A stretch of 64,000 nucleotides of DNA from Actinomycetes bacterium (GCA_021806045.1 JAJZDI010000004.1:88748-152747); one strand, 5' to 3'; numbered from the stretch's first letter, positions 42,630-64,000 are shown. Program-made: numbers and translations. The notes: generated by a model from the sequence alone, not told the origin.

Positions 42630-43079
42630 TCAGTGACCTCCGGGCGCGGGGCCCGGGCCCAGTGCACCGCTCCGCCCCGCCGGCCCGTAGCGGTAGACGG
42701 CGACGGCGAGCACGTCGGTGACGGCGACGGGTCCGAACGTCCGGCTGTCGGTGCTGGCGCCCGGCGCGTCACCGAGCACCACCACCCCTTCGGTACCACC
42801 GACGCGGACCGTGGCCACCCGCTTGACAAGGATCCGGCCACCGCCTCGCGGATCCCGGACGATGACGACAGCACCGGGGCGGACGAACCGGTATCGAATC
42901 CAGCGGGGAAGCCGTCTCGGGAGGCGGAGTGCGGCCAGCCGGTCGCCCGGCTGCAGGGCCGGCACCATCGACGTGCCCTCCACCTCGACCCGCCGCACGC
43001 CTGCCAGAGCGGCCAGGACAGCGATTGCGGGCAGCACCACCAGGACCGCCACCAGGCGCCGTGCCGGGTGGGCCGTCAC
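42630..43079 (-). CDS. sodX: Ni-superoxide dismutase maturation protease (S26 family)
   Basis: A 149-residue signal-peptidase-like protein with one N-terminal membrane helix (about 8-27). The catalytic Ser37 is in VEGTSMVPALQPGD and Lys86 in RILVKRVATV. Box E reads GDAP...STDSRTFG (103-115). Such proteases remove the leader of Ni-SOD so that His1 becomes the N-terminus. It is divergent from sodN, which confirms the assignment. Confidence 0.9.
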   Translation of the reverse strand: MTAHPARRLVAVLVVLPAIAVLAALAGVRRVEVEGTSMVPALQPGDRLAALRLPRRLPRWIRYRFVRPGAVVIVRDPRGGGRILVKRVATVRVGGTEGVVVLGDAPGASTDSRTFGPVAVTDVLAVAVYRYGPAGRSGALGPGPAPGGH

Positions 43080-43351: not shown

Positions 43352-43771
43352 ATGCGCATCGCCGACCGTCTGCTTGCTGCACTCGACCGTGTGTCGCCAC
43401 CGTCCACCGTCAGTGCCCACTGCGACCTGCCCTGTGGCGTGTACGACCCGGCCCAGGCACGCATCGAGGCCGAATCGATCAAGGCGACCATGGAGAAGTT
43501 CAACGCCTCGAACGACGAGACCTTCAAGGTGCGGGCCACCATCATCAAGGAGGAGCGGGCCGAGCTGGTCAAGCAGCACCTGTGGATCCTGTGGACCGAC
43601 TACTTCAAGCCGGAGCACCTCGAGGCCCATCCCCAGCTGCACGACCTGTTCTGGCGGGCGACCAAGACCGCCGGTGAGTCGAAGAAGACGAACGACGTCG
43701 CCGTCGCCGAGCGGCTCCTCTCGGAGATCGCCGAGATCGACACCATCTTCTGGGCGACGAAGAAGGGCTGA
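43352..43771 (+). CDS. sodN: Nickel-containing superoxide dismutase
   Basis: A 139-residue precursor. The nickel hook HCDLPCGVYDPAQ starts at His23, with ligands His23, Cys24 and Cys28. Residues 1-22 are the leader that SodX would cut after Ala22, leaving the usual 117-residue enzyme. It dismutates superoxide in the cytoplasm as a hexamer. A good ribosome-binding site (AAGGAG) fits the start. Two strong hairpins follow the stop codon. Confidence 0.97.
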   Translation: MRIADRLLAALDRVSPPSTVSAHCDLPCGVYDPAQARIEAESIKATMEKFNASNDETFKVRATIIKEERAELVKQHLWILWTDYFKPEHLEAHPQLHDLFWRATKTAGESKKTNDVAVAERLLSEIAEIDTIFWATKKG

Positions 43772-53267: not shown

Positions 53268-53966
53268 GTGACCGTCTCCGACGACCACCAGTCAGCCCAC
53301 GACCACACCATCACCGTCGGCATCGTCGACGACCACGCCCTCGTCCGTGCCGGACTGCGGGAGCTGGTCGAGTCCGAGCCCAGGTTGCGCGTGGTCGGCG
53401 AGGCGGACGACACCGAATCGGCGATCGACATGCTCGCCTCGCTCCGCCCCCACGTCGCACTGGTCGACCTCGAGCTCCCGGGGGGCGGCGGCATCGCCGT
53501 GCTCGAAGCGGCGGCGGCGCGGGTGCCCGAGACGCGCTGTCTCGTCGTGAGTGCCTACTCCGACTATGCCTACATCGCCGCCGCGCTCGATGCGTCGGCC
53601 GCCGGCTATCTCCTGAAGACGGCCAACCGGACCGAGCTGGCCGAGGCGATCGTGGCCGTGTCCAAGGGAACGACCGTCCTCGACCGAGAGGTCGCCCAAC
53701 GGTTACAGCGCCGCTGGCGTGACGAGCGGGAACCCGAGGTGTCGCTCACTCCCCGTGAGGTCGAGGTGCTGTCGCTGATCGCCCGGGGCGCGGCGAACAA
53801 GGAGATCGCCGCCGAGCTCGGCCTCGGGATCCGCACCGTCGAGGGCTACGTCAGCAACGTCCTGGCCAAGCTGGGGGCCAGCTCCCGGACCGAGGCGGCG
53901 CTCTGGGCCCATGAGCACCGCATCGTCGGCGGTGGGCCGGGACCGCTCTCCCCGAACCGGCCGTGA
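53268..53966 (+). CDS. NarL/LuxR-type response regulator
   Basis: A 232-residue two-domain regulator from GTG 53268. The receiver has acidic Asp21-Asp22 (VDDHALVRAGL), phospho-acceptor Asp67 (VALVDLELPG) and Lys near 109 (GYLLKTANR). The LuxR-type helix-turn-helix (LTPREVEVLSLIARGAANKE) is at about 160-215. Its stop overlaps the kinase start (GTGA), so the two form one signalling pair. Confidence 0.93.
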   Translation: MTVSDDHQSAHDHTITVGIVDDHALVRAGLRELVESEPRLRVVGEADDTESAIDMLASLRPHVALVDLELPGGGGIAVLEAAAARVPETRCLVVSAYSDYAYIAAALDASAAGYLLKTANRTELAEAIVAVSKGTTVLDREVAQRLQRRWRDEREPEVSLTPREVEVLSLIARGAANKEIAAELGLGIRTVEGYVSNVLAKLGASSRTEAALWAHEHRIVGGGPGPLSPNRP

Positions 53967-55720
53967 GCCCCGGCCGACCCCGCCCGACACCTTCCGACAG
54001 CGGTTCGTCGCCGGCCACCCTCGACGGCGCCACGGTCGGCACCGATCCAACCGACCGGCCAACGGGCACCCCCGGGCCGGACCTGTTGGCCCCGGATGGG
54101 GTCGAGCCTGCAGCCGGTACGGCTGCCCGGCCCTCCGCCAGTACGGCCGCCGGGCCCCCCGCCGGGTCGGCCCACCCGCGGGAGGTCGCCGGCCGGCGCG
54201 TCCCGTTGGTCAACCCCGACGGCACACCCGGCGACTCCGCAGGTTGGCGTTCGGCCATGGCCAACGTCCGCGTCAGCGACGTCTTCCGCCAGGCGCTCCG
54301 CCCGCCCATCGCCGACCCCGCCTTCTGGGTCGTGCAGGCGAGCGTCGTGGCACTCACCCTCGCCCACCTTGTCCTCGACCACTCGGGGCTGGTCAACTCG
54401 TCGGCGCTGGCCAGCCTTCCCGTCGCCGCCCTCTTCATTCCCGTCGCGTACGCCGCCCTGCGCTTCGGTCTGCACGGTTCCGCTGCGACGGCCCTGTGGG
54501 CCACCATCCTCTGGGTCCCCGACCTGTCCGTCGCCCACCACCACGGCGACCCCGGCACCGACCTCGTGAGCCTCCTCCTCATCGACACGGTGGCCGTGAT
54601 CGTGGGCCAGCGGATCGAGCGGGAGAACCTTGCCCGGACCGCGGCCATGGAGGCATCGTCCCGGCGCCGGGCCACCGAGGCCCGCTACCGGCAGCTCTTC
54701 GCCGCCACCCGGGCGCCCATCCTCCTCTTCGACATGTCCGGCAAGGTGCTCGACGCGAACCCGGCGGCGTGGTCGGTGTTCGGCAGCTCCGTTCTCGAGG
54801 GCACCATGGGCGAGCTCCTCGGCCTGTCGCCGGCCACCCTCGCGGGCGCAGCGAGCTCGGGCCGGGTCGACCTGGAAGTCGAGGGCCAACCCAGCGAATT
54901 CCGCTACCTGAGCAGCGTCTCGACGGGAGAGGGCGGCGCCCAGTTCCAGGTCCTCCTCCAGGACGTCACCGTCGAGCGGCGGGCGTGGCGCGATGTCCAG
55001 GCGTACGCTGCCGCGCTGCTCGGCGCCCAGGAGGAGGAGCGGTCCCGCCTGGCCCGTGAGCTGCACGACGATCCCCTCCAGAGCCTCGTGCACGTCGCCC
55101 GCCGGTTGGAGCTCCTGGGCATGCAGGCGGGGATCACCCCTGATGAGGCCACCCGCCTGGAAGAAGCTCACGTGGAGCTCCTCGACACCTCCCGCCGGCT
55201 GCGCGACATCGCCCAGGGCCTGCGACCACCGGCACTGGAGCGGTTGGGCCTCGCAGCTGCGCTCCAGGGCCTGGTGGCAGACGAGGAGGAAGATGTGCCA
55301 GGGAGCCCACGGCTCGACTTCGCCGTCCACGGGATCGAGCGCCGCCTGGTACCCGAGTGCGAGCTCGGCCTCTACCGCATCGCCCAGGAGGCGCTCCACA
55401 ATGCGCTGGAGCACGCGGCGCCCACCCGGGTACAGGTCGTGCTCAGCTTCGACGAGTCGTTGGTCCACCTGACGGTGACCAACGACGGCACCGGGTTCGA
55501 CCCCGAGGTCACCCCGGACGCGGATCAGCTCGGCGTGCGGGGCATGCGCGAACGCGCCGGCCTGCTCGGCGGCACCCTCGCCATCGACTCGTCCGCCGGA
55601 GGCCACACCCGCGTGACGGCCACCGTCCCCCTCCGGATGGCAGGCGACCCGGCGGCTGGCACCGAGCCCTGCGCACCGGTTGGTCCGTCGGATCTGGTCG
55701 GTCCGACGCCGCAGGCATGA
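53963..55720 (+). CDS. Membrane sensor histidine kinase (NarX-like, PAS domain)
   Basis: A 585-residue kinase. A long Pro/Ala/Gly-rich N-terminus (1-105) precedes four probable membrane helices (about 115-215), a PAS domain (about 235-345, RYRQLFAATRAPILLFDMSG), a HisKA_3 dimerisation helix with phospho-acceptor His368 (LARELHDDPLQSL) and a HATPase domain (NDGTGFDPEV, LGVRGMRERAGLLGGTL). The helices could sense a membrane or redox signal. The gene is followed at once by a 7-bp tandem repeat and by the convergent DoxX-like gene. Confidence 0.92.
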   Translation: MSPGRPRPTPSDSGSSPATLDGATVGTDPTDRPTGTPGPDLLAPDGVEPAAGTAARPSASTAAGPPAGSAHPREVAGRRVPLVNPDGTPGDSAGWRSAMANVRVSDVFRQALRPPIADPAFWVVQASVVALTLAHLVLDHSGLVNSSALASLPVAALFIPVAYAALRFGLHGSAATALWATILWVPDLSVAHHHGDPGTDLVSLLLIDTVAVIVGQRIERENLARTAAMEASSRRRATEARYRQLFAATRAPILLFDMSGKVLDANPAAWSVFGSSVLEGTMGELLGLSPATLAGAASSGRVDLEVEGQPSEFRYLSSVSTGEGGAQFQVLLQDVTVERRAWRDVQAYAAALLGAQEEERSRLARELHDDPLQSLVHVARRLELLGMQAGITPDEATRLEEAHVELLDTSRRLRDIAQGLRPPALERLGLAAALQGLVADEEEDVPGSPRLDFAVHGIERRLVPECELGLYRIAQEALHNALEHAAPTRVQVVLSFDESLVHLTVTNDGTGFDPEVTPDADQLGVRGMRERAGLLGGTLAIDSSAGGHTRVTATVPLRMAGDPAAGTEPCAPVGPSDLVGPTPQA

Positions 55721-55745: not shown

Positions 55746-55875
55746 GGCACCCGGCACCCGGCACCCGGCACCCGGCACCCGGCACCCGGCACCCGGCACC
55801 CGGCACCCGGCACCCGGCACCCGGCACCCGGCACCCGGCACCCGGCACCCGGCACCCGGCACCCGGCACCCGGCA
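55746..55875. repeat. 7-bp tandem repeat (GGCACCC)x18.6
   Basis: 130 bp of uninterrupted GGCACCC units with no visible mismatch, starting 25 bp after the kinase stop. Because 7 is not a multiple of 3, every frame reads PGAGCRV-type peptides; I do not regard these as genes. Perfect identity suggests recent slippage-driven expansion. Confidence 0.95.
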
Positions 55876-55962: not shown

Positions 55963-57051
55963 TCAGGCCCCCGCAGGGGCACCGGGCCGACCACCGAAGG
56001 CGGCGCCCGAGTGGGCAGCCCGCTCGGCACGGCGGGCCCGGGCGACCGTCGGTCGGGGCACCCCCTGCCACAGCGTGAAGGCCAGCAGGACGAACAGCGG
56101 GCCGGCGTTCGGGTCGGTCCCGCTTCCGGTCAGGATCCCACCCAGGTCCTGCCCGACCACCCAGAACACGAGCGATACGACGATGCCGGCGCCAAGAGCG
56201 AAGTTGGGCTTGCGCCAGAGCACGCCCAGACCGATGGCAGCCTCGATCACGGCCAGGATCACCGCCGCACTCGTACCGTGCGTACCGATGAGGTTGGCCG
56301 CGCCGGTGGACAGGGACGCCAGCAGGTGGGGCTCGCCGGAACCGGCGCCGCTGATGGCGGAGCTGACGGCGGCGTTCGACCGGTTCGCCGGCAGCAGCTG
56401 GAGAACCGCGCTGCCGACCCACAGGACGGCCCACATGGCCCGCCCACCCCAGGCGCCAACGACGCTCTCGGCAGCCTCTGGTCCCGCCTGGGCACCGGTG
56501 GCGCCGTGTTCACGGGGCCAGACCAGGAGGGCCAGGAAGGCGTAGATGAGCACCGCGCCGGGTGCGCCGGTGATGAGGCTGGCGCTCCCACTGAAGATGC
56601 CCCCGAACGCCTCGCCGAACCACCAGACGGAGATCGACCAGGCGATGGAGGCCGCCAGTGCCGGCTTGACGGCCCGGTTGGCCAGGAGGCACACGCCGAT
56701 GGCCAACTGGGTGAGGGCGAAGAGCACGTTCCACTGGGCGATGTGCGGCGCCAGGTCGTGGGCGACGTGGGTCACGCTGTGGAGGACCCACCACGGCTGG
56801 CCCTGGCCGGTCCCCGCCAGGGTATCGGTGGCGAACGACTGGCGGAACATCGACGGTTGCAGCTGCAGGAGGCCGTCGACGAGCCAGATGGCGCCCAGCA
56901 CGATCATGACCAGGCGCAGCGACGGCCGGAGGCGGAACCAGGCGATCTGTTTGGCACCGTTGGGCACCCGCCCGTCGCCGCCATCACGTCCGGTCCGTCC
57001 GACCGCTCCGCCCGTCCTCTGCGATCGGCCTCGATGGATCACCGTCGTCAT
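55963..57051 (-). CDS. DoxX-like membrane protein with internal duplication
   Basis: A 362-residue polytopic protein from ATG 57051 with GGAAAGGAG upstream. It consists of two similar halves: residues about 48-177 and 206-327. Each has four helices and a matching hallmark, WWFGEAFGGIFSGS (143-156) and FWVVGQDLGGILTGS (296-310). The halves also share LLQLQP/VLQLLP and the following helix pattern. The fold resembles DoxX/DoxD-type small membrane proteins, of which DoxD is the quinone-binding part of an archaeal thiosulfate oxidoreductase. It is last in the NrfD-cupredoxin group, 196 bp after the cupredoxin gene. Confidence 0.72.
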   Translation of the reverse strand: MTTVIHRGRSQRTGGAVGRTGRDGGDGRVPNGAKQIAWFRLRPSLRLVMIVLGAIWLVDGLLQLQPSMFRQSFATDTLAGTGQGQPWWVLHSVTHVAHDLAPHIAQWNVLFALTQLAIGVCLLANRAVKPALAASIAWSISVWWFGEAFGGIFSGSASLITGAPGAVLIYAFLALLVWPREHGATGAQAGPEAAESVVGAWGGRAMWAVLWVGSAVLQLLPANRSNAAVSSAISGAGSGEPHLLASLSTGAANLIGTHGTSAAVILAVIEAAIGLGVLWRKPNFALGAGIVVSLVFWVVGQDLGGILTGSGTDPNAGPLFVLLAFTLWQGVPRPTVARARRAERAAHSGAAFGGRPGAPAGA

Positions 57052-57247
57052 CGCGGAGCTCCTTTCCTCTTTCCTCGTGCACTGCCTGTCCGGGACGTCG
57101 CCCGCAGGTCCTTCGTTTCTGTAGTTCGTTGCTGCTGTCCGGTGTGGATGTCCGGTGTGGCCGGTCCGATGCACCGGCGACGGCCGTCTCGCCGCCGGCA
57201 CACCGGGCCGTGTTCCCGAGGGAGGGGGAACGCTCGAGGGCCCGTTC

Positions 57248-57859
57248 TCAGGCGGTGACGGTCACCGAGCCCTTCATGTAACCGGTGTGGCTCATCACCC
57301 AGTCGCCGCAGGGGACCGAGCAGTACCAGGAGAACGTGCCGGCCGCCGATGGCGTGAAGGTGAAGGTGGTGCTGGACCCGGGATTGACCGAGGCGTTCAC
57401 GTTGATGTCCGGCGCCGTGAACGTGTGGGGCATGGCATCGTGGTTGACGATCGTCACCTTGACCGCCTGGCCCACCTTGACGGTGAAGAGCACCTGGGCG
57501 CCGACACCTCCCGAGCCCACGTAGGCCGGTTCGGAGCCCTCGGGCGTGTTGACGTCGTTGATCTGCAGCTTGATGTCCGCCGACGAGCCTCCCGATCCGG
57601 CCGGCGCCTTGGGCTGTGTCACCATCCACGGTGCGTTGCCGGTCAGCTTGGCCACGTTCGGCTGAGCACTGGGCGTGCTGCTGCACGCAGCGAGCAGCAC
57701 CGCCCCCGCCACCACCGCTGCCAGCACGGCACCGCCGTGCCGCAACGTCGACAGCGTCGATCGGACCTTTCCGGCCGCCAGCCCCACCCCAGGGCCGGCG
57801 GGCGCCCCCGCACCCGATCCGGAAGTCGACGTTCCTGCCTGCGCAGCTCCACTCCTCAT
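57248..57859 (-). CDS. Lipoprotein cupredoxin with CuA-like CX3C site
   Basis: A 203-residue exported protein from ATG 57859 (AGGGAGAGG upstream); an ATG at 57904 would add 15 residues. Signal and lipobox VLLAACSS give lipid Cys59. The domain (about 95-203) is a cupredoxin: His140 and His145 (NHDAMPHTF), then Cys180-X3-Cys184, His191 and Met195 in WYCSVPCGDWVMSHTGYMKG. Cytochrome-oxidase CuA uses CX3CX3HX2M, so this is a variant with wider Cys-His spacing. It probably carries electrons outside the membrane for the adjacent NrfD complex. A long frame continuing upstream on this strand is antisense to codon sense of NrfD and was discarded. Confidence 0.82.
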   Translation of the reverse strand: MRSGAAQAGTSTSGSGAGAPAGPGVGLAAGKVRSTLSTLRHGGAVLAAVVAGAVLLAACSSTPSAQPNVAKLTGNAPWMVTQPKAPAGSGGSSADIKLQINDVNTPEGSEPAYVGSGGVGAQVLFTVKVGQAVKVTIVNHDAMPHTFTAPDINVNASVNPGSSTTFTFTPSAAGTFSWYCSVPCGDWVMSHTGYMKGSVTVTA

Positions 57860-57918
57860 CGTCCAACCTCTCCCTTCGCGTCCGGTCGTCGATCGCTTCG
57901 TCATCGGTCCCCCGGCCC

Positions 57919-60126
57919 TCACTGCCGGCCCAGCTTCGGCATCCGGAGCACCACCAGGAACAGGCTCCCGAGAAGCAGGATCCAGACGATGGCCACGATG
58001 GTGAGGAGGGTGGTCACCACCCAGTGGCCGGTGGTCGTCAGCGGGCGCTGGTACTCGTAGACGCTCTTCGGCAGCCCGGGCGGGTCGATGGTGACCTTGT
58101 AGGAGGCCGACGCGCTCCCGGCCACCGACCCGGCAGGGCCGGCCACCTGGGCGACGAACTGCTCCTCGCCCGTCCAGGTCGGCTCGTAGGTGAACTGGGC
58201 GACGCCCGAGGCGGTGGTCGTGGCCTGGCCGATCTGCATCTGCCCGCTCCCGTTGAACTGGTTGACCATCACGTAGAAGGTCACCGTCGTCCCGGAGGGA
58301 ACGGGGGCGGATGGCGAACCGACGGTCGCCGTCAGGTCGAGGGCCGACTTCCCCGCCGCCGGCTGCGTGACGGCGAGCGTTACCGGGGTGGACGGCGCGA
58401 CCTGGCTGGCTGCGGGCTGGGCCGTGGCCGGCTGGGCGGAAGCCGGCTGGGCCGGCGTGGCCGCACCCGCTGCCTTGGCACCGCCACCGATGAGGGCGAC
58501 GAGCCCGAGGGCGACGGCAGCAACGACCACCGCGGTGGTGGCACCCCGCGGCCGACGCAGCCAGGTGAGCGGGCGCCGGCCGGCAGGTGCAGGGACGCTC
58601 GCCGCCGCCATGGCCCCGACCGGCACCTTGGTCTCGGCACCCACGGTGCCCTCGGCGATGGCCTTCTCCGTCTCGGTGGAGACCTGCTCGAAGGACCCGA
58701 TCGGGCCCGCCTCCTCCATCTCGTCGATGGACATCACCGGGATGTAGCGGAAGAGGAGCATCAGCGACAGCGGGATGGCGGCCACGCCGGCCAGGGTGAT
58801 CGTGATCGACACCCAGGTGAAGTGGTAGGAGCCCCACTGCCCTGCGACCAGTGGCTGGGTCACCGGGGGCAGCACGATGACGATCCGCTTGATCCACAGC
58901 GAGATGACCACACCGACGCTCGCCACCGTCATGCCGGCCACGTTCCGCGTCCTGCGTACCGCCACCAGGACGATGGGCAGGATCTCGCCGAAGACCACGT
59001 AGATCCAGAAGGCCGGTGCGTAGCGGCCGACCACCGTCTCGCGGATCCAACCGCTGGTGATGCCGGTGTAGCCCTCCGAGATCAGGTCGGCGAAGGTCAG
59101 GTAGGCGTACACCAGGCCGAGGGCGGCCATCAGGTACCCGAGGCGGACGAAGTGGCGCTTGGTGATGAAGCGCTGGAGGCGGTAGCCCCTGCGGAAGGCG
59201 GCGGCTGTCACGATCACCAGCGCCGTCCCCGAGTACAGGGCGGCCACCACGAAGTAGGGCGGGAACACCGTCTCCGCCCAGCCGGGCCGGCTGGTCACCG
59301 CGAACGCCCACGACAGCACCGAGTGGACGGACACGGCCAGGGGCACGATGAGGAGGGCGACGATGGTGAGGGCACCGTGGAGAAGGCGCCGTTGCCTGTC
59401 GTTGCCAAGCCACCCGAAGGAGAGGAAGCGGTAGGCGGCCCGGCGGATCCCGCCCTCGGCCGAACCGAGCGTGCGCTGGACGATGGCCAGGTCGGGGATG
59501 AGGGGCAGGTAGAAGAAGATCATCGTGGCGACGGTGTAGGTGGCGATGGCCAGGAAGTCCCACACCAGCGGCGACGACATGTTCGGGTACGCAACGATGT
59601 TGAGGAAGCGTTCGGGCCGGCCCAGGTGGGGGAAGATGAACGCCCCACCGATGAGCACGGTGACCAGTGCCATCCCCTCGGCCAGCCGGGTGAGGGGAGC
59701 CCGCCAGCTCTGGCCGGTCAGCCGAAGGATGGCCGAGATCACCGCGCCTCCGTAGCTGACGCCGATGAAGGTGATGACGTCGACGATGTAGACGGCCCAG
59801 AAGGCCTGGTCGTTGTAGCCGGCCGATCCCAGGCCGTGCTTCAACTGGTAGATCCAGGCACCGATCCCGGCCAGCACCACCAGCGCCAGAACGCCAGCAC
59901 CTGCCTTCCACAGGGCGCCCGGCTTCTCCATCATCGGCCGCATGGCCGCACTCCGGACTGCCCGGGACCACTCCGGATTGGCCCCGTGGCCGCTGTGGCC
60001 CACCGAAGCCGCCCCGCTCTCCGTTCCTGTCTCGCTCACTGTCGCCTCCGCATTCCCACTCGTTCCCGTCCGCCCACTTGCCTGCGCGTCGTCCATCGCC
60101 CGACCTGTTCCTGTCGTCTCAGTCAT
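57919..60126 (-). CDS. NrfD/ActC-like membrane subunit fused to Ig-like domain
   Basis: A 735-residue protein. After a Ser/Gly/Thr-rich leader (1-65) come about ten helices (75-490) of the NrfD/PsrC/ActC type, which exchange electrons with the membrane quinone pool. AEGMALVTVLIGGAFIFPHL then GRPERF is a family landmark. Unusually, another helix (about 532-552), an Ala/Gln/Pro linker, an Ig-like beta domain (about 575-690) and a final helix (about 703-727) are attached. It starts 5 bp after the ferredoxin stop and is certainly cotranscribed with it. No molybdopterin or haem subunit accompanies the pair. Confidence 0.85.
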   Translation of the reverse strand: MTETTGTGRAMDDAQASGRTGTSGNAEATVSETGTESGAASVGHSGHGANPEWSRAVRSAAMRPMMEKPGALWKAGAGVLALVVLAGIGAWIYQLKHGLGSAGYNDQAFWAVYIVDVITFIGVSYGGAVISAILRLTGQSWRAPLTRLAEGMALVTVLIGGAFIFPHLGRPERFLNIVAYPNMSSPLVWDFLAIATYTVATMIFFYLPLIPDLAIVQRTLGSAEGGIRRAAYRFLSFGWLGNDRQRRLLHGALTIVALLIVPLAVSVHSVLSWAFAVTSRPGWAETVFPPYFVVAALYSGTALVIVTAAAFRRGYRLQRFITKRHFVRLGYLMAALGLVYAYLTFADLISEGYTGITSGWIRETVVGRYAPAFWIYVVFGEILPIVLVAVRRTRNVAGMTVASVGVVISLWIKRIVIVLPPVTQPLVAGQWGSYHFTWVSITITLAGVAAIPLSLMLLFRYIPVMSIDEMEEAGPIGSFEQVSTETEKAIAEGTVGAETKVPVGAMAAASVPAPAGRRPLTWLRRPRGATTAVVVAAVALGLVALIGGGAKAAGAATPAQPASAQPATAQPAASQVAPSTPVTLAVTQPAAGKSALDLTATVGSPSAPVPSGTTVTFYVMVNQFNGSGQMQIGQATTTASGVAQFTYEPTWTGEEQFVAQVAGPAGSVAGSASASYKVTIDPPGLPKSVYEYQRPLTTTGHWVVTTLLTIVAIVWILLLGSLFLVVLRMPKLGRQ

Positions 60127-60131
60127 GGCGA

Positions 60132-61163
60132 TCAGCTCGCGGCACTCGAGGTGTCCTGGGACACGTCAGCGTCGAGGTCCTGGCCGTGGCCGAGGATGTA
60201 CCAGACCCTCGGATGCGTGTTCTGTTCCGGCTTGAAGGTGACTGCGTCGTTGTCGTTGAGGAACTTCGAGAGCTTCACGGTGTTGCCCATCGAGTTCACG
60301 GCGACGTCGGTGATGATGTCCGCGTTGTAGATGGCGCCCATCGGACAGCCGGCCGCACACTCGCTCATGAGGCCGTTGTTGAGGTTCCCCACGCAGAAGG
60401 TGCACTTGCCCACCGTCCCGAGGCGCTGGGGAACCGGGAACTGGGCGTCCTGCGGCATGCCCGTGTCGGGGTACTTGGTGCCCGAGTTCCAGTTGAAGTA
60501 GCGGGCCTGGTAGGGGCAGGCGGCCATGCACATACGGCAGCCGATGCACCGGGTCTCGTTGACCAGCACCACACCCTGGTCCTGCCGGTAGGTGGCGTGC
60601 ACCGGGCACACGTGCAGGCACGGGGGGTTCTCGCACTGCATGCACGGCCGGGGGAAGGGGAACTCCTTGCCCGTGCTGCTGGTCATGGTGAACACGTCGA
60701 TCCACGTCTGCTCCTGGGTCAACGAGTGCGCCTTCTGGCACGCCGCCGTGCACGACTTGCACCCGTTGCAGCTGCGCAGGTCGATCACCATGGCCCACTG
60801 GTGGGTGGGGGGTGCCGACGGGTCGGCCATGGAGGCGGCGGCACCCCCGCTCACCGCACCGCCCTTGGTGGTGCCGTTGGCGGCGGCCGCTCCGGCTGCG
60901 TACTCCCGGTAGGTGAGGAGCTCGACCCCGGCACCCACCGCCGCGGCTGCGCCGGCGCCGATGCCGAGCAGCCGCAGGAACGACCGGCGCGACACCGACG
61001 GGTCCTCGGCGTCGTCGCCGGCATCGGGTACAAGGCACGTCCCCGACGAGCAGGACGAGCCCGACGAGCAGGACCCTCCGGGGTGTGCGTCGAGCACCGA
61101 GAGCGGAGTGCTCCCCTCGCTCCCGTCGGGCTCGTTCAGATGTGGATCGATCAACCAGCTCAC
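60132..61163 (-). CDS. Tat-exported four-cluster ferredoxin (PsrB/NrfC-like)
   Basis: A 343-residue protein from GTG 61163 with GAGGGAGAA upstream. Sixteen Cys residues in four groups (132/135/138/142, 174/177/182/186, 206/209/212/216, 254/257/269/273) would bind four 4Fe-4S clusters, as in PsrB, DmsB and NrfC. A twin-arginine signal SRRSFLRLLG (Arg59-Arg60) is preceded by an unusual ~57-residue leader with three Cys residues (SCSSGSSCSSGTC). It should dock to NrfD on the outer face and relay electrons between quinone and a partner, here plausibly the cupredoxins. Confidence 0.88.
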   Translation of the reverse strand: MSWLIDPHLNEPDGSEGSTPLSVLDAHPGGSCSSGSSCSSGTCLVPDAGDDAEDPSVSRRSFLRLLGIGAGAAAAVGAGVELLTYREYAAGAAAANGTTKGGAVSGGAAASMADPSAPPTHQWAMVIDLRSCNGCKSCTAACQKAHSLTQEQTWIDVFTMTSSTGKEFPFPRPCMQCENPPCLHVCPVHATYRQDQGVVLVNETRCIGCRMCMAACPYQARYFNWNSGTKYPDTGMPQDAQFPVPQRLGTVGKCTFCVGNLNNGLMSECAAGCPMGAIYNADIITDVAVNSMGNTVKLSKFLNDNDAVTFKPEQNTHPRVWYILGHGQDLDADVSQDTSSAAS

Positions 61164-61228
61164 AGCAGTTCTCCCTCGTGTCTCACTCCATGACGGACGG
61201 CGGCCGGGGCCGGTGGCCCCCGACCCGA

Positions 61229-61936
61229 TCAGGTGAAGGTGACGTGTCCCATCATCCAGCCGTCGGTGTTCATCGCTCCGCCCATGCCCGTCTCCCCGCT
61301 CCCGCACGGAGCGGCGCACAGCCAGTCGAAGGTCCCCTTCTTCGTCACCCGGAAGGTGAACGTGACGGTGACCGGGTGGCTGGACGACTGGGCCGCCGGA
61401 ATGGGCACGTTGATCAGGAGCCCGGGGATGGTGAAGGTGTGGGCCACCTGGTCGTTCGGGATGCTGTGCACCGGCGAGCCGTCGACCAGCTCGGTGCCAC
61501 CCGTGGTCGCCCCGTAGGTGGCGTCGGCGCCCCACACCTGGCCCCACGGCGACGCCGGCGGCAGCGGCGCGGTCCCGTCGTCGTAGCTGACGATCGTCAG
61601 CACCACGGTGGCGCCGGCCGGGGCGGTGAAGCCGGAGGGGGAGTAGCGGGGCCACCCGGACCGCCCGTCCATCTTCCCCGTCTGGATCTCCATCGTGCGG
61701 TGGACGGTCACCGTGCTCGCCGTCAGCCCGGCTGTCGACGATCCGTTCCCGCTCGCGCTCGACGACGAGCAGGCGGCGAGGGACAGGGCGATCGTGGCCC
61801 CGGCTCCCAGCACCGCCGCCGTGCGCAGGAGGGACCGGTGACGGCTACCGGCGCCCTCGTGCCGGCGGGCCGGCAGGCGAGCGGGGTCACCCCCCGCTCG
61901 CCTGCCTCCCTTCTGATGGTGCCCTACCGGTGTCAT
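61229..61936 (-). CDS. Lipoprotein cupredoxin-like protein B
   Basis: A 235-residue protein from ATG 61936, with AAGGAGGAG upstream. The signal ends in LSLAACSS (lipid Cys56). A conserved block VVLTIVSYDDGTAPLP (111-126) and His166 (VAHTF) precede the copper-loop-like WLCAAPCGSG with Cys207-X3-Cys211 and a Met-rich end (Met218, Met222, Met228, Met229). It is a paralogue of the next gene. The second His of a classical CuA site is missing, so the metal site would be Cys/Met-rich. 65 bp upstream of the ferredoxin gene. Confidence 0.78.
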   Translation of the reverse strand: MTPVGHHQKGGRRAGGDPARLPARRHEGAGSRHRSLLRTAAVLGAGATIALSLAACSSSSASGNGSSTAGLTASTVTVHRTMEIQTGKMDGRSGWPRYSPSGFTAPAGATVVLTIVSYDDGTAPLPPASPWGQVWGADATYGATTGGTELVDGSPVHSIPNDQVAHTFTIPGLLINVPIPAAQSSSHPVTVTFTFRVTKKGTFDWLCAAPCGSGETGMGGAMNTDGWMMGHVTFT

Positions 61937-61992
61937 GCCCTGCTCCTCCTTCGCCCTCGAGATATCCTGCGCGCTTTCCGTGGACGGTCGGC

Positions 61993-62637
61993 TCACGCCA
62001 CCGTCAGGTTGCCCTCCATGTAGCCCATGGTCGCCATGGGGCCACTCATGCCGTCAGAGCCGCTGCCGCACGGAGCCATGCACTTCCAGGTGAAGGTGCC
62101 GGCCTTGGTCGCCTTGAAGCTGAACGTCACGACCAGCGGCTTCTGCTCGCTGTTGGCAGCTGCCGTCGGTGCCACGCCGTAGGGCACGTTGATCCCGAGC
62201 TGGGGCACGGTGAAGGTGTGGGCCACGTCGGAGGCGGCGACGGTGGTGACCGGCTGGCCGCCCTCGGTCAGGTCGGCGACACCGGTGGCCTTGGTGTAGA
62301 TCGCCATGTTCGACGGGAGCGGGGCGGTGCCCGTGTCGTAGCTGTAGATGGTCATGTCGACCGTGGCGCCCTTCGGCACGGTGATGTCCGACGGCTGGTA
62401 CATGGGCCACCCGCTGTGATTGACCATCCCGCCGTCCATCACGACCGTGGCCACGTGCACGGTGACGGGGGGAGGGGCGGTGGTGGTGTTGCTGGCGCTG
62501 CTGTTCGAGCTGCAGGCGGTCAGTGCCCCGCCGGCAGCCAGTGCGCCGGCGGCGACCAACAGCCAGCGCCGGCCACGGCCCGCCCGGCTGCGGCCAGCCT
62601 GAGCAGACATCGCATCTCCCCGAGTTGCAGTATCCAT
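61993..62637 (-). CDS. Lipoprotein cupredoxin-like protein A
   Basis: A 214-residue protein, probably from ATG 62637 (AAGGAGG upstream); ATG 62610 is also possible. The lipobox is GALTACSS (Cys42). It shares with protein B the block TVDMTIYSYDTGTAPLP (92-108), His140 (VAHTF) and WKCMAPCGSGSDGMSGPM with Cys186-X3-Cys190, Met197 and Met201, ending MATMGYMEG. First gene of the group in transcription order. The tandem arrangement of A and B points to duplication. Confidence 0.78.
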   Translation of the reverse strand: MDTATRGDAMSAQAGRSRAGRGRRWLLVAAGALAAGGALTACSSNSSASNTTTAPPPVTVHVATVVMDGGMVNHSGWPMYQPSDITVPKGATVDMTIYSYDTGTAPLPSNMAIYTKATGVADLTEGGQPVTTVAASDVAHTFTVPQLGINVPYGVAPTAAANSEQKPLVVTFSFKATKAGTFTWKCMAPCGSGSDGMSGPMATMGYMEGNLTVA

Positions 62638-62958
62638 GCGGACCCAACCTCCTTGGCTCTACGCAGCGCATGGTGCGCCACGCTGGTCCGGTACCGGATC
62701 GCCCCAACGGCTCTGCCGGCACCTTCAGCGATTCTGCGGAAGGACCGTCGCGCAGGGCAGCGAGCTACCACCGTGAACGCGCCCCGTAATTCCTTGGTGG
62801 GGTGGTTCGGTGTTTCCCGTAACGGGGGCGGGCGGGTGCGGCGTAGTGCCAGGAGTGCGACGCCGAGACGGGCGTGGGGCCCGGGCCGGGTACGGGCGTG
62901 GGGCGTGGGGCGTGGGGCCCGGGACCAGCCCTACGGGCCCGGGACCAGGCGCGAGAAC
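62638..62958. promoter_or_regulatory. 321-bp region upstream of the cupredoxin-NrfD group
   Basis: Lies between the stop of the right-hand kinase and the start of cupredoxin A on the same strand, so the promoter of the group is probably here. It holds three GGGCGTG units (62894-62914) and two copies of GGGCCCGGGACCAG (62915-62928 and 62935-62948) next to the kinase stop. No clear operator seen closer to the cupredoxin start. Confidence 0.4.
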
Positions 62959-64000
62959 TCAGCTGTGGGGCACGGTCACGGCGACCGTCGTCCCTCCCTG
63001 ACGGCCCGGCCCCACCTCCAGGTGGGCACCGACGGCGTCGGCACGCTCCCGCATGCCGAGAAGGCCCAGACCGGGTGGTGCGTCCGTGACGATCCCGGTG
63101 CCGTCATCGGCGATGGTGGCTCGGCACTCCTCGGGCGAGAAGGCCAGGCAGACGTTGATGTGGGTGGCACCGGAATGGCGCTCGGCGTTGCGCACCGACT
63201 CCTGGACGATCCGGAAGACAGCCAACTCCACCTGGGGAGCCAACCGCCTCGGGGTCCCTTCCACGTCCAGCGTCCGGACCGCATCGCCGTTGGTCTCGTC
63301 GAGGAGCGCCTCCACGGCGGCGACCAGCCCCAGGTCATCGAGGACGGGCGGCCGCAGGCCTCGTGCCAGCGCCCGTAGTTCGGCGATCACGTCGATCGCT
63401 TCCTGGCGGGCGTCACGGATGGGATCGGCCAGTGCCTCACCGCCGCCTGCCAGGCCGGCGGCCCGTTCGGCTGCCAGCAGTCGCTGCGACAGGTGGACCA
63501 GGCGCTGGACCGGCTCGTCGTGGAGCTCCTGGGAGATCCGACGGCGCTCGTCCTCCTGCACTTTGACCAGGTCGTTCGCGTAGGCGCGGGCGCTGCGTCC
63601 CTCGCGTGCCTCCGCGGTCACGTCATGGAGCACGACCTGGACGGTCTGCTCACCGGGGGTGCCGAGACCCGCCACCACGGTGGACTGGACCCGGAACTCG
63701 CGGGCGTCGTTCCCGGTCCCCACCACCAGGGAGTGGGCCGGCGCCGCGCCGTCGACGTCGGTCGTGCGCCATCCGTCCTCGATGCCCACCTCGGCAGCCG
63801 GGCTGCCCGTGATCGTGTCGCCGAACACCTCCCGGGCCGCTGGATTGGCCAGGACCACCGTGCCCGCCGCGTCGATGAGCAGGGTGGGGGACGCATGAGC
63901 GTCGAGCAGGCTCCGGTAACGCTGCTCCGCTGCCTGGTGCTCGGCATCGGCACGCTCGGCCGTGGCGCGAGCGGCACGCTCCCGCTCGATGCGGAACCCG
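62959..64000 (-). CDS. Sensor histidine kinase, 5'-truncated by window edge
   Basis: The frame is open to the right edge, so the N-terminus lies outside. Visible parts: an Ala/Glu/Arg-rich coiled coil, a PAS domain (RYRSLLDAHASPTLLIDAAG), a HisKA_3 helix with phospho-acceptor His in ISQELHDEPVQRL, and a HATPase domain (ADDGTGIVTDAPPGLGLLGM). It is similar in layout to the kinase at 53963-55720. Its position directly upstream of the cupredoxin-NrfD group suggests it senses a signal for that system; no response regulator is seen next to it within the window. Confidence 0.9.
   Translation of the reverse strand, partial: GFRIERERAARATAERADAEHQAAEQRYRSLLDAHASPTLLIDAAGTVVLANPAAREVFGDTITGSPAAEVGIEDGWRTTDVDGAAPAHSLVVGTGNDAREFRVQSTVVAGLGTPGEQTVQVVLHDVTAEAREGRSARAYANDLVKVQEDERRRISQELHDEPVQRLVHLSQRLLAAERAAGLAGGGEALADPIRDARQEAIDVIAELRALARGLRPPVLDDLGLVAAVEALLDETNGDAVRTLDVEGTPRRLAPQVELAVFRIVQESVRNAERHSGATHINVCLAFSPEECRATIADDGTGIVTDAPPGLGLLGMRERADAVGAHLEVGPGRQGGTTVAVTVPHS

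Follow-up and report, generated by a model that had tools for sequence, protein, structure and literature searches.

The alternative complex III (ACIII) of Chloroflexus and Roseiflexus reduces the blue copper protein auracyanin by way of its haem subunits (PMC3150298, PMC8552683). In the PsrABC, TtrABC and ArrABC complexes, a quinone module formed by a four-cluster iron-sulfur (FeS) protein and an NrfD membrane subunit is combined with a molybdopterin catalytic subunit. The window analyzed here is a stretch of 64,000 nucleotides from contig 33 of an actinobacterial genome (3.1 Mb, 43 contigs), which contains at positions 55963-62637 a cassette of six genes that joins an FeS-NrfD module to three cupredoxins; the operon holds no gene for a molybdopterin or haem subunit. 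All known relatives of the complex seem to use haem or molybdenum subunits, and the cassette is a candidate for a stripped-down form. We lean towards the reading that it encodes a haem-free relative of ACIII, a quinol:cupredoxin oxidoreductase at the outer face of the cytoplasmic membrane that feeds an oxidase. The initial annotation of the window had stated that known NrfD systems pair NrfD and ferredoxin with a molybdopterin enzyme and/or c-type haem; electron transfer of the NrfD type from quinol to copper nevertheless has a precedent in ACIII, although haem subunits do intervene there. The cassette, which is found in acid-loving actinobacteria, was not found described in the searchable literature: queries pairing NrfD with cupredoxin, or NrfD with Acidimicrobi-, returned nothing relevant within a coverage that excludes subscription papers.

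The quinone module

The six genes lie on one strand, as initially annotated; this is the minus strand, and the genes have short gaps and plausible ribosome-binding sites:

61993..62637, minus strand: Cup1, lipoprotein cupredoxin (refined start 62637), with an LTAC lipobox and a CuA-like set of His, CxxxC and Met, second His absent
61229..61936, minus strand: Cup2, lipoprotein cupredoxin of the Cup1 family (refined start ATG 61936)
60132..61163, minus strand: FeS subunit of the PsrB/DsrO/ActB type (refined start GTG 61163), with a Tat signal (SRRSFL) and 16 invariant Cys in four [4Fe-4S] motifs
57919..60126, minus strand: ActC-like NrfD subunit with a C-terminal Ig-like domain and flanking transmembrane segments (start ATG 60126)
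58639..59907 (approximate limits), minus strand: NrfD/ActC-type membrane domain of the fusion, with the predicted quinone site (H139/S164/D169 equivalents kept)
58057..58374 (approximate limits), minus strand: Ig-like domain of the NrfD fusion
57248..57859, minus strand: Cup3, lipoprotein cupredoxin (start ATG 57859), nearest to the NosZ CuA domain, with a C-x3-C-x10-M loop
55963..57051, minus strand: duplicated polytopic membrane protein (refined start ATG 57051)

The FeS subunit (343 amino acids, without the Mo-like ActB1 domain) matches four-cluster ferredoxin models, and its profile matches PsrB/ArrB/ActB-type chains. NrfD, whose start codon sits 5 nt past the FeS stop, matches PF03916 at 106.8 bits, and the matches of its profile in the PDB are limited to ActC of ACIII (6f0k_C, 6lod_C, 6btm_C and 8k9e_C; E 1e-63 to 8e-50). 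The ferredoxin-NrfD quinone module that had been predicted is supported. The best NCBIfam models are DsrO for the FeS subunit (162 bits, cut-off 200) and DsrP for NrfD (70 bits, cut-off 350), both below cut-off, and DsrM, DsrK and DsrJ, which complete DsrMKJOP, were not seen in the cassette loci. The Ig-like domain matches PF16640 at only 19.5 bits, under the cut-off; it is fused to NrfD in the window and in the closest kin, and is encoded by a separate gene after NrfD in most relatives. Based on the ActC residue table of Calisto and Pereira (PMC8076601), the equivalents of ActC H139, S164, D169 and R395 are kept in the alignment in nearly all members of the cupredoxin NrfD clade, and H97 is a Tyr throughout this clade.

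The cassette shares with ACIII the ActC-like NrfD and an FeS subunit akin to the cluster domain of ActB; quinol oxidation would occur at the P-side, as in ACIII, which can also end on a copper protein. In contrast to ACIII, the cassette is without the multihaem ActA, the monohaem ActE, the Mo-like ActB1 domain, ActD (DUF3341) and ActF, its NrfD falls in a clade of its own, and its copper proteins are encoded in the operon and are CuA-like rather than type 1. Since the haem, Mo-like, ActD and ActF parts are absent, the cassette does not belong to ACIII, yet it may plausibly work similarly. The four-cluster FeS protein and NrfD also resemble those of PsrABC, TtrABC and ArrABC, from which the cassette differs by the missing molybdopterin subunit and by the distance of its NrfD in the tree; a PsrABC-type operon (L072) exists separately in the host.

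The putative copper site of the cupredoxins

All three cupredoxins carry a lipobox. In Pfam and NCBIfam, Cup3 matches Cupredoxin_1 and the NosZ CuA domain and Cup1/2 give weak COX2 matches only, while the best profile matches are the CuA domain of nitrous oxide reductase (NosZ) for Cup3 and that of the Thermus ba3 oxidase for Cup1/2. Together with the lipoboxes, these matches bear out the annotation of three lipoprotein cupredoxins. The predicted model of Cup3 is modest (pLDDT 57, core near 78) and returned general cupredoxins in Foldseek.

Like the CuA domains of oxidase subunit II and nitrous oxide reductase, the cassette proteins have a cupredoxin fold and retain the His, the CxxxC and the Met that precedes x-Gly. 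However, none of the 67 cassette cupredoxins checked (0/67) has the second His, which in CuA follows the second Cys by four residues; 10-11 or 16-17 residues separate the second Cys from the Met, against 7 in CuA; and the proteins are stand-alone lipoproteins. They therefore do not fit the full CuA ligand set of two His, two Cys and one Met (C-x3-C-x3-H-x2-M), whose motif is complete in all seven oxidase subunits II from the same genome group (7/7), the host's own included. Nor do they fit the type 1 blue copper pattern of auracyanin and rusticyanin, in which the only Cys ligand is accompanied by a His of the C-terminal ligand loop; their loop has CxxxC, two invariant Cys and no invariant His. 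The replacement of the second His is perhaps an adaptation to acid. A literature search for His120 variants of CuA azurin found no paper.

Conservation of the cassette and apparent exchange of its carrier

The NrfD clade and strong Cup1/2 matches occur in an identical set of 22 among the order's 148 genomes (Fisher p 1e-26, with kinship not corrected). The gene order recurs in 14 named loci of actinobacterial metagenome-assembled genomes (MAGs) and in most order genomes that carry the cassette; among named relatives, the nearest are MAGs that bear the label Actinomycetes or Acidimicrobiaceae, with a top NrfD identity of 89%. In two genomes (G033 and G083), the Cup genes lie on a separate contig from NrfD, adjoining regulators of the same type. 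The co-occurrence of NrfD with the cupredoxins, a check of the kind proposed with the initial annotation, is exact in these genomes, and the genes are co-conserved even where they are unlinked. The cassette is a well-supported co-conserved module that is spread over many families of the order. A CxxCH protein was found neither in the window operon nor in the cassettes of the cupredoxin clade.

Neighborhoods at the class and phylum levels show three layers of FeS-NrfD-Ig arrangement: the cupredoxin cassettes, FeS-NrfD-Ig with no visible carrier, and FeS-NrfD-Ig with a cytochrome c fused to the Ig protein or following it (e.g. G017, G221 and G349). The modules of the third layer have the same FeS, NrfD and Ig parts as the cassette and often the same type of two-component regulators, with cytochrome c and frequently an upstream EB_dh haem-b protein in place of the cupredoxins. 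In a maximum-likelihood tree, all cupredoxin NrfDs group together (100/99) and branch separately from the ACIII clade (100/100) and from Psr; true ACIII loci and PsrABC-type loci are separate. From the three layers and the single clade, copper proteins and cytochrome c therefore appear to be interchangeable carriers of one module, and copper seems to replace haem. A cytochrome subunit in relatives, which the initial annotation had named as a finding that would speak against it, is present in the distant kin (cytochrome c, EB_dh) and not in the cupredoxin clade.

Loci of two other architectures were observed. In G221 (L134, 24-12541), a run of multihaem, Rieske-like, cytochrome b and multihaem cytochrome b/c genes is followed by FeS, NrfD, Ig-cytochrome c and a hexahaem protein; it looks like a bc complex combined with an NrfD module in one operon. 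In another actinobacterial family (L153/L154; G618, G430), the loci are ACIII-like: FeS and NrfD are encoded by separate genes, accompanied by a DUF3341-like gene and one for a protein with nine haems.

The membrane protein at the end of the cassette is internally duplicated (self-match 30%, E 6e-8), as annotated, whereas its DoxX-like label lacks support: DoxX-type Pfam models matched none of five members up to E 1. Its AF2 model is poor (pLDDT 50). The protein was rejected as a fixed partner of the cassette, as 47 of the 148 order genomes carry it and it is not exclusive. In G377 (L128 3523-5160), a single open reading frame (ORF) unites the duplicated membrane protein and a Cup1/2-type cupredoxin, a natural link between both. 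A SCO1/SenC-like domain is present at the C-terminus of distant homologues, with 46 bits for G110 and, under the cut-off, 16 bits for G032, which suggests a role in copper-site assembly. The whole cassette could then serve copper handling, with FeS-NrfD giving reducing power for Cu(I) and thiol loading of the oxidase CuA and the cupredoxins acting as metallochaperones; the Met-rich CxxxC sites suit Cu(I), and a NapH/NosR-like (Fer4_5) gene follows the cassette in G083/G033. We consider this quite improbable: nearly every genome of the order has oxidases and just 22 have the cassette, a quinone-linked module of four clusters is larger than the task requires, and cytochrome c takes the place of the copper proteins in relatives.

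The cassette is flanked by genes that are kept in relatives:

62959..64000, continuing beyond the window, minus strand: upstream histidine kinase (HisKA_3 + PAS)
53268..53966, plus strand: LuxR-type response regulator, convergent to the operon
53963..55720, plus strand: membrane histidine kinase (HisKA_3 + PAS), convergent to the operon

Because this neighborhood is conserved, the flanking two-component systems would regulate the operon. The neighborhood ORFs come from our own codon-based caller (not Prodigal), so that small ones may have escaped it and start positions are approximate. In the gap where the cassette and the kinase gene converge, 18.6 perfect copies of the heptamer GGCACCC form an array (55746-55875), and a shorter GGGCGTG array (62894-62918) is found past the opposite end of the operon. 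Elsewhere in the window are a nickel superoxide dismutase-like gene (43352-43771; motif HCDLPCGVYDP) and, nearby, a signal-peptidase-like gene (42630-43079).

Electron partners and direction of flow

Distant Cup homologues (about 30-39% identity) are encoded directly upstream of COX2-COX1-COX3 in G110, G032, G022 and G142, which argues for cupredoxins as donors to haem-copper oxidases. RuBisCO was not found in the host and is full-scoring in just 2 of the 22 cassette genomes, and reverse flow for CO2 fixation is thereby weakened as a main or common role. Because of these two observations, the direction quinol to cupredoxin to oxidase is favoured. The distant Cup1-like cupredoxin upstream of COX2-COX1-COX3 (L170, L173, L174 and L177), which is encoded in genomes without the cassette or apart from it, G032 included, is possibly a rusticyanin-like donor in actinobacterial iron oxidisers.

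In the reverse direction, the cupredoxins would collect electrons from outside the cell, e.g. from Fe(II) as rusticyanin does, and FeS-NrfD would drive them into quinones by proton motive force. The named relatives are MAGs, three of them labelled Acidimicrobiaceae or similar, and the isolate codes of several presumably denote acid-mine-drainage samples. Actinobacterial iron oxidisers given iron show reduced a-type haem and no blue copper (PMC5143472), a Cup homologue stands beside the oxidase in G032, and QrcABCD is an NrfD module able to reduce menaquinone (PMC13059093). Against this, the cassette is absent from G032 itself, and RuBisCO is as scarce as stated above. Electron transfer from a CuA-like potential up to menaquinone is, moreover, energetically costly. 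We regard the reverse direction as unlikely.

The FeS-NrfD module could also be a quinone link for periplasmic type-II molybdoenzymes (ethylbenzene-dehydrogenase-like), to and from which the cupredoxins would shuttle electrons. No Mo catalytic subunit was found in the window or in the cassette loci examined, save in G129, where the cassette regulator is preceded, at a distance of a few bases, by a TIGR03479-type gene; the initial statement that a Mo or haem partner is missing stands for the operon, and G129 is one relative with a Mo gene next to the cassette. In G129, G073, G109 and G088, type-II Mo genes are on one contig with the cassette, with 11 matches against about 1.5 expected (~7x; the list is partly hand-assigned), and EB_dh haem-b proteins occur in the cytochrome-c relatives. 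However, G142, G120, G033 and G083 have one or two Mo matches, which may be NuoG or formate dehydrogenase, the match on the cassette contig of G105 and G048 is NuoG, the type-II genes of the host are on other contigs, and in most loci they are not adjacent. A general link of this kind is improbable, and since other cassette genomes have just one or two Mo matches, a molybdoenzyme partnership is at most a lineage-specific use. As a separate observation, a large recurrent cluster (L183, L184, L186, L190, L191, L194, L196) encodes two type-II DMSO-reductase-like subunits, a ferredoxin-type FeS protein, gamma-like and TorD-like proteins, small membrane proteins and an enzyme of ~400 amino acids; it is present in several copies per genome, in the host on contigs 13, 43 and 4.

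Four points weigh against a quinol:cupredoxin oxidoreductase. D253, a residue of the ActC quinone site, is replaced by Ala across the whole cupredoxin NrfD clade, and E394 mostly by Lys. A cytochrome b/bcc-aa3 chain is present in the host, about ten kilobases before the window start, and in nearly all relatives, so that the cassette is not the sole complex III; loss of bcc in cassette genomes was accordingly rejected, cytochrome b and COX1 being present in nearly all. Some genomes have type-II molybdoenzymes close to the cassette, and the cupredoxins may work with these enzymes instead. Finally, the second CuA His is missing from every cassette cupredoxin checked, which makes even their redox activity putative.

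In the quinol:cupredoxin oxidoreductase that we prefer, menaquinol would give up its electrons at the P-side site of the ActC-like NrfD, where H139, S164 and D169 are kept and D253 is not. The electrons would then cross the four clusters of the Tat-exported FeS subunit, whose Cys ligands are all present, and pass to the lipid-anchored CuA-like cupredoxins, a transfer to which co-conservation points. From there they may reach the CuA of an aa3-type oxidase, as the Cup homologues next to oxidase genes suggest. Also in favour of this reading, the CBB3-type (PF13442) cytochrome c matches of the host, the one family searched, all fall in one diheme ORF beside the bcc genes. The Ig domain could be an extracytoplasmic scaffold, and the duplicated membrane protein probably assists copper loading. 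The initial annotation had proposed this oxidoreductase or its reverse; the NrfD-FeS module, its copper partners and the lack of haem and Mo in the cassette agree with it, and direction, partners and activity are our inference. Its furthest form, a haem-free and molybdenum-free 'complex III' whose FeS clusters deliver electrons straight to CuA-like proteins that feed haem-copper oxidases without cytochrome c, we advance tentatively.

If this is true, the cassette would be a respiratory quinol-oxidising complex without haem or molybdenum, and the periplasmic carrier of one module, cytochrome c or copper proteins, would have been exchanged across one phylum. The cupredoxins would provide a natural CuA-like site lacking the second His, which has so far been approached by protein engineering. 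How acidophilic actinobacteria respire iron and oxygen is poorly understood, and the cassette is a candidate electron route in them.

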